A stretch of DNA of 46,988 nt. It comes from Bacillota bacterium (GTDB lineage: Bacteria > Bacillota > JADQBR01). Shown in pieces: positions 16,820 through 46,842 of this stretch. The notes beneath the pieces were generated by a model. The model ran no database searches and was not told the DNA's origin. It saw nothing but the letters and a program-made list of their open reading frames with translations. The position numbers and the translations under genes were made by a program. How positions within the stretch are numbered: position 1 is the first letter of the stretch; each line of letters starts with the position of its first letter. The DNA lies in the NCBI GenBank assembly GCA_016278515.1, contig JADQBR010000078.1:1-46988 (forward strand). The letters run 5' to 3'.

Positions 16820-16862
16820 GCGCAAAAAAGGACAAAAGAGACCAGCGCTTATCGCTGTCTCC
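16820..16862 (-). terminator. Riboswitch expression-platform terminator
   Basis: Reading the minus strand, GAGACAGCG pairs with CGCTGGTCTC (one bulged base) and is followed by TTTTG, a few bases and then six T. It sits between the second glycine aptamer and the gcvT ribosome binding site. The 5' arm also adjoins the P1 strand of aptamer 2, so an either/or switch between aptamer and terminator is plausible. This predicts that glycine turns the operon on by preventing termination. Confidence 0.8.
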
Positions 16863-17064
16863 TCTGTCCTCGATACCTGAGAGATTATTTCACGCGGCCT
16901 AAACCTTGTAGAGTGCCGCAATGAAGTACCCCTTTGGTGTCCTTTGAAATATTAAAGGAACTCTCCAGAGGTTCGTCCTGTTCCGGTACTTGTGCCTGAG
17001 AGTTTCCCTAACAGCCAGCATGCTGCTCAGTTGCTCCTTCGGCGCCTCGTTTGAGGACTCTCCC
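16856..17064 (-). ncRNA. Tandem glycine riboswitch (gcvT RNA)
   Basis: On the minus strand, aptamer 1 (about 17064-16960) starts GGGAGAGTCCTC and contains GCGCCGAAGGAGCAA, CTCTCAGGCAC and ACAGGACG, ending at CTGGAGAG. Aptamer 2 (about 16958-16856) contains CACCAAAGGGGTA, CTCTCAGGTA and GAGGACAGAGG. These are the hallmark segments of the gcvT class. It lies upstream of gcvT and therefore controls gcvT-gcvH-gcvPA-gcvPB, the two radical SAM genes and lipM if no internal promoter exists. Tandem aptamers with a downstream terminator are the known arrangement in Bacillus. Confidence 0.95.
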
Positions 17065-17081
17065 GAAACGATCATCCGCAT

Positions 17082-41813: not shown

Positions 41814-41843
41814 TTGACATTTTTATATACAATTTGTTATGAT
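41814..41843 (+). promoter_or_regulatory. Sigma-A promoter of the GNAT gene
   Basis: A consensus TTGACA and a TATGAT are 18 bases apart, placing the transcript start near 41850. This rules out a start for the downstream gene at 41814. Confidence 0.75.
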
Positions 41844-41933
41844 GTTTTTGTTACAATTAAACGGCTGCAGACATTTGGCGGCTGTTTTTATTTAGCTGAA
41901 CCAAAAGCTTATTTAATCCGAAAGGGTGGTTGG

Positions 41934-42449
41934 ATGAGTGAAAAAGATGTTACGCTCAGGAGAGAGGTCTTCCGTGAAGATTTGGAGCAGTTGTTGAAGT
42001 GGGTAGAGGATTCGGATGTAAATAGATATCTTAATGAACAGCAAGGCGTTGGTGAAAACCTAAGAAATGCCATAATTAAAAGCCCGAATAGTCTCTTTAC
42101 CCACCGGTTAAACCAAGAAGGTCGATTTTTTTTAGTTGAAGATGCTGATGATGAACAGCCTATTGGCTATTTGCGGCTTGTTAATAAAGCGACTGAAGGT
42201 GAAATAGTTGTAGCCATTGGCGAAAAAGATAAATGGGGTCAAGGATTGGGTAAAAGCTCGCTTTGGGAAGGCTTGAAGGTCGCGTTTTTTAATATGCGTC
42301 TGGATGGGTTGTATGCCAAAATCCACCGTAAAAACAAGCGCTCAATGAACTTATTCAAGAAACTAGGTTTTCAACCTCTGGGCGAAACTGAAAAAGAGAA
42401 GATATTCTACTTATCCCAGGATAAGTTTTTAGAATTGGCAGTATCGTAA
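41934..42449 (+). CDS. GNAT family N-acetyltransferase (RimJ/RimL-like)
   Basis: A 171-residue acetyltransferase. The opening VTLRREVFREDLEQLLKWVEDSDVNRYL is typical of RimJ/RimL and spermidine-acetyltransferase relatives. The acetyl-CoA loop is KDKWGQGLGKSSLWEGLKVAFF, and the C-terminal block IHRKNKRSMNLFKKLGFQPLGE is characteristic. The ATG at 41934 follows GGGTGG. A reading from 41814 would run through a promoter. The acceptor molecule is unknown. The gene is probably transcribed alone and ends just before the tRNA-Ala promoter. Confidence 0.88.
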   Translation: MSEKDVTLRREVFREDLEQLLKWVEDSDVNRYLNEQQGVGENLRNAIIKSPNSLFTHRLNQEGRFFLVEDADDEQPIGYLRLVNKATEGEIVVAIGEKDKWGQGLGKSSLWEGLKVAFFNMRLDGLYAKIHRKNKRSMNLFKKLGFQPLGETEKEKIFYLSQDKFLELAVS

Positions 42450-42470: not shown

Positions 42471-42499
42471 TTGCAAAATTGCTCTTTTTATGGCATAAT
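42471..42499 (+). promoter_or_regulatory. Promoter of the tRNA-Ala transcript
   Basis: TTGCAA and CATAAT are separated by 17 bases, with the tRNA 24 bases further on. This promoter would also transcribe the tRNA-like element that follows. Confidence 0.6.
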
Positions 42500-42523: not shown

Positions 42524-42599
42524 GGGGGCGTAGCTCAGCTGGGAGAGTGCTAGACTGGCAGTCTAGAGGTCAGGGGTTCGAACCCCCTCGTCTCCACCA
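42524..42599 (+). tRNA. tRNA-Ala (anticodon GGC)
   Basis: A complete 76-nt cloverleaf with encoded CCA. The acceptor stem GGGGGCG pairs with CGTCTCC (two G-T pairs), the anticodon arm is CTAGA-CTGGCAG-TCTAG with anticodon GGC, and the T arm GGGGTTCGAACCCC is canonical. The discriminator is A73, as expected for alanine. Confidence 0.97.
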
Positions 42600-42607
42600 C
42601 ATTTCAT

Positions 42608-42676
42608 GCGGGATCCACTAGGTGGACCATCGCCGTCCAGGCCTTGGTTCGGGTGCGATTCCTGAGTCCCGCTCCA
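42608..42676 (+). ncRNA. tRNA-Gly-like RNA element, copy 1
   Basis: A 69-nt element beginning eight bases after tRNA-Ala. GCGGGAT and GTCCCGC form a seven-pair acceptor-like stem, followed by T73 and CCA, the end structure of tRNA-Gly. TCGGG-TGCGATT-CCTGA forms a T arm whose loop differs from TTCGATT by one base (G for U55). TGGAC-CATCGCC-GTCCA can form an anticodon-like arm, but position 33 is A, not U. Only eight bases stand where a D arm should be. An alternative fold is a three-way junction with hairpins GGATCCA/TGGACC and ATCGC/GCGAT. It is probably co-transcribed with tRNA-Ala and has its own terminator. A near-identical copy lies at 46741. Function unknown. Confidence 0.6.
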
Positions 42677-42683
42677 GTACATA

Positions 42684-42710
42684 AGAGTAGCCGATGAGGT
42701 TGCTCTTTTT
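42684..42710 (+). terminator. Terminator of the tRNA-Ala/tRNA-like transcript
   Basis: AGAGTAGCC pairs with GGTTGCTCT (two wobble pairs) around GATGA and is followed by TTTTT. Confidence 0.85.
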
Positions 42711-42846
42711 ATGTTTGCAATGCTGCAAAGGCGTTATTACTGAATCCCTCACTTTTTTCCAAAAATTATGATATAATTATTATATCCAAGGCAGGTGTGG
42801 TAATAACGAAACTATTCGGGAATGCTTGATAAATGGAGGTGCCGAG

Positions 42847-43212
42847 GTGGAAAAAGAAATCCAGGATGAATTGAACATTCTCAAAGATATCATTGTGAAC
42901 ACCGTCCCTGTGGAGCAAATAATCCTGTTCGGCTCCTATGCGAACGGTACGCCGCATGCTGAGTCCGATCTGGACATTTACGTGGTGATGCCGGAGAACG
43001 CGGATATTCGAGAAATTGATGCCATGAGGCTAATTCACAGAGCAATCCGAGACAAAAAAACAATGCCTGTGGATGTAATAGTCAGCAAAACAAATAAGTT
43101 TAACCAACGCAAATCCACCCCCACCATCGAGCGACAAATAGCCCGAGAGGGGATGGTGCTGTATGGAGGATCCTCAGGAAATTCGTCGGCTAATTTCGTA
43201 CCTGCTGTTTAA
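42847..43212 (+). CDS. MNT-type nucleotidyltransferase domain protein
   Basis: A 121-residue protein of the minimal nucleotidyltransferase group. The active-site motif ILFGSYANGTPHAESDLDIYVV holds the Gly-Ser and two aspartates that bind metal. The C-terminal half VDVIVSKTNKFNQRKSTPTIERQIAREGMVLY is typical. Such proteins usually act as antitoxins that modify a HEPN toxin encoded immediately downstream. The GTG at 42847 follows GGAGG by seven bases. An earlier TTG lies ahead of this site. No intact HEPN gene follows, only a possible short remnant, so this seems to be an orphan. The last 12 residues may be read-through sequence created by the loss of the partner. Confidence 0.85.
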   Translation: MEKEIQDELNILKDIIVNTVPVEQIILFGSYANGTPHAESDLDIYVVMPENADIREIDAMRLIHRAIRDKKTMPVDVIVSKTNKFNQRKSTPTIERQIAREGMVLYGGSSGNSSANFVPAV

Positions 43213-43237
43213 TTCAATCCGCCCGGGATTAGTCTAG
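43163..43237 (+). pseudogene. Possible remnant of a HEPN partner gene
   Basis: In another frame than the MNT gene, and overlapping its end, an ATG at 43163 opens a 24-codon frame encoding MEDPQEIRRLISYLLFNSIR and four more residues. The first residues resemble the start of HEPN proteins, and the place is where the HEPN gene normally begins. It ends abruptly at the converging amidohydrolase gene. This is a tentative reading of a very short sequence. Confidence 0.3.
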
Positions 43238-44131
43238 ACCCAATAACCTAGATGCATTTCCATAGAAAATCAAGTCCATTTCTTGTTGATTTATTGCCAG
43301 CTCGGTACAAACACCAACTTGGCTATCGAAATAGCTTTTAGCCCAACCGCGGGGAAACCAGCTGGAATCACTTCCGAAAACTATCCTCTCTGGCCCCACG
43401 GTATCCAGTGCTTTGGCAAAGAGGTCTTTTAGGGTAAGCGGATACGGACACCATTGCATCCAGTCATTACACCCTGAAGTGTCAATATAAATATTGGGGC
43501 TTGACCAGGCTAAATGCAGAAGTTCCTGATAATATCCCGCTCCAAAATGGGGAATTACAAAGGGAATATCAGTAAAAGTCTGGGCCACTGGGGCAAGAGT
43601 AAGCGGGTTAATCCGGGGATGGTAAACCACACCGCCAGGGCCACCAAGGACACCAAAATGAATAAGCACGGGAACCTTTCTCTCGGCTAATAGGGTCCAA
43701 AAAGGCTTTAGCTCAGGACTCTCAAACGGTAAGGTTGTGAGGGGGCCAAACCATTTGTAACCGACAAGGTGGAGTTCATCTAAGGCGTATTTGAGTTTAT
43801 TCACGGCATCCGGTGCACACAGATCATGGTGAGCAAAGCCTAAAAATTTGTCAGGATGCTCGTTAACAAACTGAGCAAGAGTTTCGTTACCGCCCCCGGT
43901 TAAAAACACAACTTTCTTTAAACCATACTTATCAACTTCCGATGCCCAGCGTTCGATCTGCACACGGTTTCCCGGATGCTCCAGCTGGGGTTCGGGAAAG
44001 TCATATTCTTGACGCCAGCGCTTGCGAAATTTTTGGGAGTATTCCTTCACAAGAGGGTGAATCCCTCTTTTGATCATGGTGTGATGTGCAGGGAAGTGAG
44101 CGTGAAAGTCAATTACTTGAAAAGGCATCAT
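43229..44131 (-). CDS. Amidohydrolase family protein (amidohydrolase_2 type)
   Basis: A 300-residue TIM-barrel metal-dependent hydrolase or decarboxylase. Metal-binding HAH is in VIDFHAHFPAHH at the N-terminus. A conserved histidine follows in IPFVIPHFGAGYY, and the terminal aspartate is in ERIVFGSDSSWFPRGW. The family includes ACMS decarboxylase, gamma-resorcylate decarboxylase and 4-oxalomesaconate hydratase, and I cannot choose a substrate. The ATG follows AAGGAG by eight bases, with a second ATG right after. It is the only minus-strand gene between the two tRNA-like copies and is not part of an operon. Confidence 0.85.
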   Translation of the reverse strand: MMPFQVIDFHAHFPAHHTMIKRGIHPLVKEYSQKFRKRWRQEYDFPEPQLEHPGNRVQIERWASEVDKYGLKKVVFLTGGGNETLAQFVNEHPDKFLGFAHHDLCAPDAVNKLKYALDELHLVGYKWFGPLTTLPFESPELKPFWTLLAERKVPVLIHFGVLGGPGGVVYHPRINPLTLAPVAQTFTDIPFVIPHFGAGYYQELLHLAWSSPNIYIDTSGCNDWMQWCPYPLTLKDLFAKALDTVGPERIVFGSDSSWFPRGWAKSYFDSQVGVCTELAINQQEMDLIFYGNASRLLGLD

Positions 44132-44361
44132 ATCATAAACTCCTTCTTATTAAGCTCATAGCTCATTAGATTTAGTTTGGCTGTTGAAGCGTTGGAAAAA
44201 ACAGACCTATAATCGTTATAGTACATTATTTCTTCTTAATTTTTGGTGATTCCTGCTGTGGTTGGCTTCTTTGTATTTATGTGGTAAAATCCACATGTAT
44301 TATTTATAGAAGGTGAAAAATAGCACAATCTACATTTTAGTAGATAAAGGAGGCGGCTATT

Positions 44362-44874
44362 ATGATTGAACCATCAAAAGTATCCGAGGCATTTAATAGA
44401 GTTGAAGAAGAAAATTATGCTTTCCGTGCATTTTTAAAAGATCATGCAGATGAGGATAAATTGGACAAGCAGTTTTTAGAATTACATAATGAATTATTTT
44501 CAGATTACGATTGTAATAAATGCAGGAATTGCTGCAAGGAATATTCCGCAAGTTTCGAGGAGTACGAATTAAAGTCAGTTTCGGCTTTTCTCAAGATGAC
44601 GGAAAAAGGGTTTAAAGATAAATATATTAAAGAAGACCTGGGCGAATCTCTACTTAATGTGAAGCCTTGCTGTTTCCTTATGGAAGATGGTGGTTGTGCA
44701 ATTAAACCCTGCAAACCTTTGAACTGCAAAGACTACCCATTTACAAACAAACCTGAGAGACTGTGGAGTTTACTGAGTATTTTGACATCGGCAAGCATTT
44801 GCCCGGTTGTGTTTGAAATGCTCGAAAGATTAAAAAAAGAATATGGTTTCACCAAAAGAAGAAGGAGATATTAA
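44362..44874 (+). CDS. YkgJ-type cysteine-cluster protein
   Basis: A 170-residue protein with the YkgJ/UPF0153 zinc- or iron-binding pattern: CNKCRNCCKEY near residue 51, then PCCFLMEDGGCAIKPCKPLNCKDYPF near residue 110. Flanking regions are helical and charged. The start has AAGGAGGCGG upstream. The next gene begins five bases after its stop, so the two are an operon. The role of the family is unknown. A short decayed copy of its first codons is found at 46550. Confidence 0.85.
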   Translation: MIEPSKVSEAFNRVEEENYAFRAFLKDHADEDKLDKQFLELHNELFSDYDCNKCRNCCKEYSASFEEYELKSVSAFLKMTEKGFKDKYIKEDLGESLLNVKPCCFLMEDGGCAIKPCKPLNCKDYPFTNKPERLWSLLSILTSASICPVVFEMLERLKKEYGFTKRRRRY

Positions 44875-44879
44875 AAAAA

Positions 44880-46544
44880 GTGAATTACAATGAATTTTTG
44901 AAAGCAGTGGATGAAAAGCTGTCCATTATGACTGAAACAGAAAAAAATCAATGGATACATAATATGGCCAGAACCACAAAAGAACATAAAAGAACTGCAT
45001 TTTTAGAATCTTTGCTGGAAGAACAAGCTTGTTGTCCCGACAATTATATAAAAAAAGAAATAGAGGACTGGTGCAGAAAAATTGAAGAACAGGAAATATA
45101 TTTTGAGTGCAGTGGTTATGAGGAATATGGAGAAAGCTATTGGGACAGCGATTATTCGTATGAATATTCTGATGCTTTTGGAATAGGAAAAGAACTTTCA
45201 AGAGCATTTCAAGCAACTGAAGATTTATTGTTCCAAAAAGAATACAAGCAGGCCTCAGAACTATATGAAAAGCTTTGTAACATGTCATTTGCGGCAATAG
45301 ATTGCGATACTGGGGAGAGTCAGGAACTGGAACTGAAGGAACTTGTGGATGAAAAGCTGGCAAGCTTGGATTTGAAGAAGATTGTCTTGAATTTGATGTA
45401 TGCAAAATATCAGGCTGCTGAAGGTGAGGAAAGAGCAGCTGCACTATACCGGTATTTTTCATGGGGTATGTGCAAGGACACAAAAGTAGAAGAAATTTTT
45501 ATTGTAGGCCCAGAAGAGCTTAAAGGGATAGATGTTTTTATAGAGGAATGGATTTCTTTTCTGAAAAATACAGATGGAGACATGGCAGGAGACTTGCTGT
45601 CGGGTGCATGCATATATCAGGGGGGCATCGGCCGTTTATGTGAAATAGCAAAAGAAGTATCGGCGAAACATCCAGTTTTATATGAATATGCTTGTCAGCA
45701 GCTACTGAATGAACAAAAAGAGATTGAATGTGAAAAGCTAGGGTTGGAATCTATTGGCATGCTGCCTGAAAATCTAGTTGTCAGGGGAAAAATCGCTGAT
45801 TTAACAGCGAAGGCTGCTAAACAGTTAGGGCATGCGGATATAATTAAAGAATGTTATGAAGCGGCTTTTCGTGCCGAATCAACGCTAAATCACTATTTGC
45901 GGTTATTTGAACTTCCGGACTATAAAGACATTGTAGACAGAGTGGCGAAGTATGCAAATGCATTACCGGAAAATCCTGTGTGGGAAGGGAATCATAATAA
46001 ACAGCTGCTGGTGAATTATCTTTCAAAGGACCATAAAAAAGTAATTAGGTTTTTAAATGGTGAGTTTGATTGCATTTTTGAATATTGTAATAAAGATAAA
46101 ACCCAATTGGGTTGGAGCAGCCAGTTTAAAGGGATTGCTGTTCCACTATTTATTTTGCTGCTGAATCAAAATGAAAAGCTTACAAAAGCCGGACAACGGT
46201 TGATAGATGGGATAGAATACAGGTTAGGATATAAGGAAGACGATATTAAGAACTTTACAGACCGTTTTTTTACATGGAAGGAAAAAGTAGCTTTAACGAA
46301 TGAACAATATGAGAAGTATACAAAATGGCTGAAAAAAGAAGTTGATAGAAGGACAGAGGCCGTTGTAGGAGGAAGTCATCGGAAAAGTTACTATAAGGTA
46401 GCTGTACTGATAGCAGCATTAGGTGAAGCATTGGAGTCAAATGGAAAGCCGCATGGAAGAATGGCTGTAATAGATCATTATAAAAAAATGTATTCCCGGA
46501 AAAGGGCGTTTAGAGCAGAATTTGAAATGCTAAATGAGAAATGA
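44880..46544 (+). CDS. Large helical protein, possibly SWIM-associated type
   Basis: A 554-residue soluble protein with no signal peptide, no membrane helix and no catalytic motif I recognise. Most of it looks like helical repeats, perhaps TPR-like: FQKEYKQASELYEKLCNMSFAA, LYRYFSWGMC and YRAESTLNHYLRLF-type units. The C-terminal 65 residues (RTEAVVGGSHRKSYYKVAVLIAALGEAL through MYSRKRAFRAEFEML) resemble the ends of SWIM zinc-finger proteins, but the SWIM finger itself is absent. The GTG start is 12 bases from AAGGAG, so its start is uncertain. It is co-transcribed with the YkgJ-type gene, and the two may act together. Homologues should be sought before a role is proposed. Confidence 0.6.
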   Translation: MNYNEFLKAVDEKLSIMTETEKNQWIHNMARTTKEHKRTAFLESLLEEQACCPDNYIKKEIEDWCRKIEEQEIYFECSGYEEYGESYWDSDYSYEYSDAFGIGKELSRAFQATEDLLFQKEYKQASELYEKLCNMSFAAIDCDTGESQELELKELVDEKLASLDLKKIVLNLMYAKYQAAEGEERAAALYRYFSWGMCKDTKVEEIFIVGPEELKGIDVFIEEWISFLKNTDGDMAGDLLSGACIYQGGIGRLCEIAKEVSAKHPVLYEYACQQLLNEQKEIECEKLGLESIGMLPENLVVRGKIADLTAKAAKQLGHADIIKECYEAAFRAESTLNHYLRLFELPDYKDIVDRVAKYANALPENPVWEGNHNKQLLVNYLSKDHKKVIRFLNGEFDCIFEYCNKDKTQLGWSSQFKGIAVPLFILLLNQNEKLTKAGQRLIDGIEYRLGYKEDDIKNFTDRFFTWKEKVALTNEQYEKYTKWLKKEVDRRTEAVVGGSHRKSYYKVAVLIAALGEALESNGKPHGRMAVIDHYKKMYSRKRAFRAEFEMLNEK

Positions 46545-46549
46545 GTAAT

Positions 46550-46588
46550 GTGATAGAACCATTAAAAGTCAAAGAAACTTTTAAGTGA
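46550..46588 (+). pseudogene. Decayed copy of the YkgJ-type gene start
   Basis: A GTG-started frame encoding MIEPLKVKETFK then a stop. The intact gene at 44362 begins MIEPSKVSEAFN, and the DNA also matches over about 40 bases. It looks like the leftover of a second paralogue, following directly after the 554-residue protein gene. Confidence 0.4.
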
Positions 46589-46636
46589 GTAGGAAATTTT
46601 CTGATCAGAATGTTGTAATAAGGAATGAGAATAGTA

Positions 46637-46798
46637 ATGGAAAAGAATATTTTTGGAAGTACTTCATTAAAAGTAAATTGGAAAGGTGAAATTGTATCTA
46701 TTCAACCTAGAACGAGAGTGTGGAGATATCCACATTTCATGCGGGATCCACTTTTTGGACCATCGCCGTCCAGGCCTTGGTTCGGGTGCGATTCCTGA
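46637..46798 (+). pseudogene. Reading frame truncated by the tRNA-like copy 2
   Basis: An ATG at 46637 opens a 53-codon frame: residues 1-31 (ending SIQPRTRVWRY) look like a genuine protein start, with a ribosome binding site AAGGAATGAG upstream. From codon 32 the frame runs into the repeated tRNA-like element and continues as nonsense to a stop. The junction falls where similarity to the copy at 42597 begins. This suggests that the element or the recombination that placed it here cut the gene. The parent protein family is not certain. Confidence 0.45.
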
Positions 46799-46809
46799 GT
46801 CCCGCTCCA
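46741..46809 (+). ncRNA. tRNA-Gly-like RNA element, copy 2
   Basis: Identical to the element at 42608 at 66 of 69 positions. The three differences (AGG changed to TTT) all fall in the short segment replacing the D arm. The acceptor-like stem GCGGGAT/GTCCCGC, T73-CCA and the TGCGATT loop are unchanged. The preceding CCACATTTCAT is also shared with copy 1, where its first three bases are the tRNA-Ala CCA end. No tRNA gene precedes this copy and no clear promoter was seen, but a hairpin TGTGGA-GATA-TCCACA lies just upstream. Confidence 0.6.
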
Positions 46810-46815
46810 ATTACT

Positions 46816-46842
46816 AGAGTAACCGATGAGGTTGCTCTTTTT
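46816..46842 (+). terminator. Terminator of tRNA-like copy 2
   Basis: AGAGTAACC pairs with GGTTGCTCT around GATGA, followed by TTTTT. It is nearly the same as the terminator of copy 1, so the element and its terminator were duplicated together. Confidence 0.8.

Follow-up and report, generated by a model that had tools for sequence, protein, structure and literature searches.

The two near-identical repeats in the window (the whole 46,988-nucleotide stretch of Bacillota DNA analysed here) are genes for a real tRNA-Gly derivative of ~69 nt and not a product of chance. Their RNA, descended from or mimicking tRNA-Gly, folds into a conserved cloverleaf whose D arm has shrunk. Judged from its sequence, it has kept the bases read by GlyRS and lost what decoding and strong EF-Tu binding require. 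Because the loading features are retained and the ribosome features are gone, the RNA probably delivers glycine to cell-wall synthesis. We propose, giving this explanation about an even chance, a dedicated non-ribosomal tRNA-Gly that would be charged by GlyRS and act as the glycine donor for peptidoglycan through a putative partnership with FemABX.

Gene copies and fold of the RNA

Copy 1 lies at 42608-42676 (+) and copy 2 at 46741-46809 (+), 4133 nt apart. They agree at 66 of 69 positions, whereas their flanks are unrelated (~51-53% identity); the three changes in copy 2 (AGG to TTT, UUU in the RNA, in the D-hairpin loop) all fall in the D segment. Both copies have a 7-bp acceptor-type stem, U73-CCA, a T loop UGCGAUU with G55, and G33 in place of U33, with an intrinsic terminator downstream of each (42683..42707 and 46816..46838, both +). 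A sequence-only reading of this DNA had described the two copies (with a spacing of 4.1 kb), their few differences, the acceptor-type stem, T73-CCA, the altered T loop, the missing U33 and the terminators, and all of these were borne out by computation. Absent from it were the tRNA-Ala(GGC) gene that ends 8 nt 5' of copy 1 and a third gene copy on another contig.

This tRNA-Ala(GGC), the upstream partner of copy 1, occupies 42524..42599 (+; ARAGORN and Rfam). It is preceded by a promoter-like site, TTGCAA-17-CATAAT with a TG extension (42471..42499, +; a consensus match only), and by a GNAT-fold N-acetyltransferase gene (41814..42449, +), which is also found 5' of tRNA-Ala and the element in a related genome, G001 (64% DNA identity). 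Upstream of copy 2, just the short stretch CCACATTTCAT is shared with the tRNA-Ala 3' region. The third copy in this genome (G000) lies on contig C96 (C96:2563-2663, minus strand), downstream of a degenerate tRNA-Ala; it is more diverged, with U1-G72 as its acceptor end pair. An MntA-like nucleotidyltransferase gene (42826-43212) lies 3' of copy 1, and an MNT-HEPN type gene pair adjoins the C96 copy (L007:2771-3660, -).

The supported fold comprises an acceptor stem of 7 bp, an 11-nt mini D-hairpin, an anticodon stem of 8-9 bp closing on the pentaloop G-UCC-A with the glycine anticodon UCC, a T stem of 5 bp and U73-CCA. In copy 1 (all on the plus strand), the 5' acceptor strand GCGGGAU (42608..42614) pairs with GUCCCGC (42666-42672). 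It is followed by the mini D-hairpin CCAC-UAG-GUGG (42615..42625), which lacks the 8-9 linker, and by the anticodon arm ACCAUCGCC-GUCCA-GGCCUUGGU (42626..42648), in which the pentaloop G33 U34 C35 C36 A37 is closed by pair 32-38 and the anticodon lies at 42636-42638. The T arm UCGGG-UGCGAUU-CCUGA (42649..42665) carries G55, U-A at 49-65 and G.U at 51-63, and the discriminator U73 with an encoded CCA completes the RNA (42673..42676).

Covariation among 12 aligned sequences supports this fold. RNAalifold, unaided, recovered all 20 pairs of the acceptor, anticodon and T stems; 95% of cells were paired, double compensatory changes occurred in 15 of the 20 pairs, and none of 500 shuffles matched either the paired fraction or the two-sided changes. 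The compensatory changes include those in the acceptor and T stems, which the sequence-only reading had named as a check on homologues. Its other possibility, a three-way-junction RNA with accidental similarity, is excluded by the covariation and RNAalifold. The anticodon stem it had drawn (UGGAC/GUCCA with a 7-nt loop) failed, with 65% pairing over the 12 homologues, not clearly above shuffles, and the D arm it took to be replaced by eight bases is really reduced to the 11-nt mini-hairpin. With exact ends, which are needed because shifted ends mislead, the cloverleaf is the minimum-energy fold of all five copies in this family; it is not that of a more distant relative in genome G368.

Of the features of tRNA family RF00005, the 7-bp acceptor stem, the 5-bp T stem and CCA are all present, and the 7-nt anticodon loop with U33, the G18G19 D arm and the U55 T loop are all absent. 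The element resembles canonical tRNA-Gly in its acceptor GCGGG...CCCGC, U73-CCA, NCC anticodon and 5-bp T stem, and differs from it in length (~69 instead of 74-75 nt), in G55, in the pentaloop, in the missing 8-9 linker and in going undetected by Rfam and ARAGORN. Indeed, ARAGORN called no tRNA at either window copy, and Rfam returned nothing tRNA-like (RF00005) in 42600-42720 even at E<=10; over the whole window at gathering score it reported only the tRNA-Ala and a pair of glycine riboswitches. These tandem aptamers lie at 16861-17075 (-; 66.7 and 37.7 bits). The sole relative called by ARAGORN is the G368 copy, as tRNA-Gly(CCC). Since the element is invisible to the standard tRNA finders used, more of its kind may have been overlooked.

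Relatives in Bacillota and in marine phages

A DNA search found two copies in G001, a complete genome of the same family but a different genus. A covariance model built from six sequences (R1) and run on 398 genomes of the phylum gave matches of 67-69 nt in G002, a third genus of the family with one copy, and in G111, G076 and G368, which belong to two further Bacillota families. R1 also matched ordinary tRNA-Gly (74 nt, up to ~43 bits); a second model, R2, separated the two cleanly and identified exactly six genomes at E<=3e-7. The element is therefore present in 6 of 398 genomes, in three families. A repeat R2 scan of the orders to which G368 and G111 belong gave no new carriers, only two weak matches of ordinary tRNA length (74 nt). 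Searches of plasmids and phage records gave no match to the window element, and a pattern scan of genome contigs gave five matches, none of them tRNA-like.

The order tRNA-Ala(GGC), element, terminator is common to G000, G001, G111 and G076, while in G002 the element lies 3' of tRNA-Asp within a tRNA cluster. Between G000 and G001 the element is 95.6% identical and tRNA-Ala 97.4%, whereas the adjacent gene reaches 64% and a spacer 62%; the element is as conserved between genera as a tRNA gene, unlike the neighbouring DNA. Second copies carry all or traces of the tRNA-Ala 3' end, from which it follows that this end was duplicated together with the element. The cargo between copies varies: in the window (42599-46741) it consists of MNT, a hydrolase-like gene and two unknown ORFs, and in G001 (L006:6389-7545) of a QueG-like Fe-S protein. 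A cysteine-cluster protein (44362-44874, +) and a 554-aa ORF (44880-46544, +) are without NCBIfam match. Differing cargo and tRNA-Ala 3' remnants before the second copy are as at an insertion hot spot.

The pentaloops read G-UCC-A in the window, G-ACC-A in G002, C-UCC-A in G111, C-ACC-A in G076 and G-CCC-A in G368. Position 33 is G or C and never U; position 34 drifts (U, A or C) and C35, C36 and A37 are fixed, so that all are glycine anticodons.

Pattern scans of IMG/VR revealed a strongly diverged version in L013 and, with a second pattern, more phage versions. Reduced tRNA-Gly occur in the marine T4-like contigs L013:47-115 (-), L060:2270-2335 (+) and L063:381-447 (-), in which ARAGORN called no other tRNA. 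The bacterial relatives were found by model, the phage sequences with patterns that fixed the T loop together with some of the anticodon-loop letters, and for this reason the phage letters in those loops are not independent evidence. Plasmids and phage records gave no match to L063 or L013, and for L071 only a 32-nt match (E 0.07). Next to the L060 element lies a vWA/peptidase gene with relatives in cyanophages and Pelagibacter phages; in L013 a similar gene is found at a greater distance.

Many phages also encode tRNA-Gly(UCC) of full length that has G55 in the T loop and A18G19 in the D loop (IMG/VR contigs L050, L051, L052, L054, L056, L057, L058, L059, L068, L073 and L077), several with anticodon loops of 5 or 6 nt. 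Among full-length phage tRNA-Gly with G55, A18G19 replaces G18G19 in seven of eight distinct forms, which suggests, from few sequences, that an A18-G55 contact took the place of the G18-Psi55 elbow contact. Most reduced forms keep AG in the mini D-loop: it is UAG in window copy 1, where it may supply A18-G19, and is lost in copy 2. The full-length G55 set may show this exchange of elbow contacts and also a series of glycine tRNAs that do not decode. More tentatively, and with somewhat less than an even chance, bacterial and phage forms would make up an undescribed Bacillota/marine-phage class of tRNAs that cannot decode and act solely as glycine carriers, with a reduced A18-G55 elbow and an N-NCC-A pentaloop, through which phages would feed or hijack the host glycine pathway.

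Charging features and the proposed FemABX connection

C35, C36, C2-G71, G3-C70 and U73 are invariant in all 12 aligned elements; together they are the established bacterial GlyRS identity set. Among the tRNAs of G000 and G001, the best match to acceptor plus T arm is tRNA-Gly for four of five elements, with that of G002 tied with a Leu. The features linked to decoding have gone the other way: U33 is missing, the loop has five bases and G stands at the Psi55 position. The pairs G49-U65 and G51-C63 are found in 9/9 canonical tRNA-Gly of G000, G001 and G002 but neither occurs in any of 14 elements, where pair 51-63 is A-U, U-A or G.U. This loss runs in the same direction as in the non-proteinogenic tRNA-Gly of S. 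aureus, which according to a review replace both strong EF-Tu pairs as well as positions 18-19 (PMC4052509). G001 and G002 possess canonical tRNA-Gly with UCC, GCC and CCC anticodons, a complete set that makes the element dispensable for decoding.

On the enzyme side, FemAB (PF02388) is encoded in 6/6 carrier genomes versus 168 of 398 (42%) in the phylum sample; counted by family, three of three at a 42% base rate gives ~0.07, weak statistics that are suggestive only. In the five carriers of families f1 and f34, femABX is flanked by pyrG on one side and by an alanine racemase-like gene on the other (gene names by sequence reading). The FemABX proteins tested (G000, G111 and G368) all have as best PDB match 6snr, the S. 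aureus lipid II:glycine glycyltransferase, with 2e-59 and 1e-58 for G000 and G111, far above the alanyl-transferring FemX of W. viridescens. The G368 element stops 33 nt short of the start of a femABX gene and a second femABX follows, both matching 6snr best; a rough count puts the probability that a tRNA gene falls by chance into the 100 nt 5' of any of some five genes on its strand, in 2.7 Mb of DNA, at ~1e-4.

In the proposed mechanism, GlyRS would charge the element with glycine, EF-Tu and the ribosome would largely ignore the product, and the Gly-tRNA would be handed to FemABX, an FmhB-type lipid II:glycine glycyltransferase, which would add the glycine to the peptidoglycan stem peptide. 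Covariation, tRNA-like constraint, the GlyRS bases, the lost EF-Tu pairs, the femABX adjacency in G368 and the presence of FemAB in carriers support this donor role. Against it, only 6 of 398 genomes carry the element and 42% have FemAB, so FemABX does not generally depend on it. G400, the sister of G368, speaks for both sides: 5' of its orthologous femABX, where G368 has the element, there is DNA that can be aligned to the element's anticodon arm and 3' end, but this version looks decayed because its T arm is shortened, while femABX persists. Also against the donor role, femABX in G000 lies on contig C71 and not near the element, and a search of the phage carrier contigs found no FemAB-like ORF. 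As for the mimic of tRNA-Gly proposed by the sequence-only reading, its aminoacylatable, non-ribosomal core is strengthened by covariation, the GlyRS bases, the loss of EF-Tu pairs and U33, and the FemABX linkage; its assignment of the arms had to be given up.

Alternative readings and known tRNA systems

The charging and EF-Tu evidence would also fit if glycine were passed to another aminoacyl-tRNA-dependent enzyme, such as an aminoacyltransferase acting on natural products, lipids or proteins. Of the FemABX pair in G368, one protein has a further match to 9wqw, an 'aminoacyl-tRNA-dependent peptide synthase', and the phage carriers lack a detected FemAB; yet no other shared enzyme was found beside the element in carriers and, among tRNA-dependent enzymes, only FemABX was seen next to it, and we regard this variant as unlikely. 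It is distinctly unlikely that the RNA is a regulatory decoy that binds a glycine T-box leader or other tRNA sensor instead of tRNA-Gly and so tunes glycine genes. All six carriers have T-box matches (12-18 each), the element retains the NCC anticodon and the CCA end on which T-box pairing relies, and the mini D-hairpin may preserve part of the elbow. T-boxes, however, are known to read a normal anticodon loop and elbow, whereas the element has a 5-nt loop and a rebuilt D arm; the T-box loci examined have no glyQS beside them and no glycine T-box next to GlyRS, and C2-G71 and G3-C70 are conserved though no T-box requires them.

Glycine anticodons in all elements, CCA in nearly all and the ARAGORN call in G368 would suit an atypical tRNA-Gly that still translates, tolerated like mitochondrial D-armless tRNAs. 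The complete canonical set, the pentaloop without U33, the loss of EF-Tu-strong pairs in 14/14 elements and the drift of N34, A34 included, make this very improbable. We give equally little credence to a phage-moved decoy for tRNA-attacking toxins in defence or counter-defence: marine T4-like phages carry relatives, the sole tRNA-like gene in L013, L060 and L063, and MNT or HEPN toxin-antitoxin genes adjoin copy 1 and the C96 copy, but no MNT/HEPN pair was noticed next to the G001, G002 or G368 elements, and the position of the element after tRNA genes with a terminator resembles a housekeeping operon. Least credible is a tRNA-Gly pseudogene or duplication debris; repeated duplication with tRNA-Ala 3' remnants, U1-G72 in the third copy and the degenerate G400 version point that way, and compensation in 15 of 20 pairs and 95.6% identity between genera contradict it for the main copies. 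Mom-type DNA glycylation was also considered and dropped, with no sequence support and no paper found.

Returning to the glycine donor, the closest known system is the staphylococcal non-proteinogenic tRNA-Gly with FemXAB (PMC4052509). In both, glycine tRNAs occur in addition to a complete canonical set; the GlyRS identity bases are kept, positions 18-19 are altered, the EF-Tu-strong T-stem pairs are replaced (A51-U63 in G002, G111, G076 and G368), and the genome encodes an FmhB-like FemAB protein. The staphylococcal changes mentioned concern only positions 18-19 and T-stem pairs, not arm loss (PMC4052509), unlike the mini-hairpin D arm, 5-nt loop without U33 and G at Psi55 seen here. A lost or reduced D arm recalls mitochondrial D-armless tRNAs, which decode in organelles; passages of a review describe arm loss for mitochondria only (PMC7609411). 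The present element comes from free-living bacteria and from phages and is without the features for decoding. No bacterial D-armless tRNA-Gly was found in the open-licence literature. The element is best read as a more reduced analogue of the staphylococcal type.

For most organisms, the way in which aminoacyl-tRNAs are diverted from EF-Tu towards the cell wall has been called unclear (PMC4052509). If the donor reading is right, the element would provide a natural test case for this diversion and would be a tRNA of free-living bacteria and phages whose D arm is reduced; tRNAs committed to non-ribosomal delivery and stripped of their decoding parts would then evolve outside staphylococci too.
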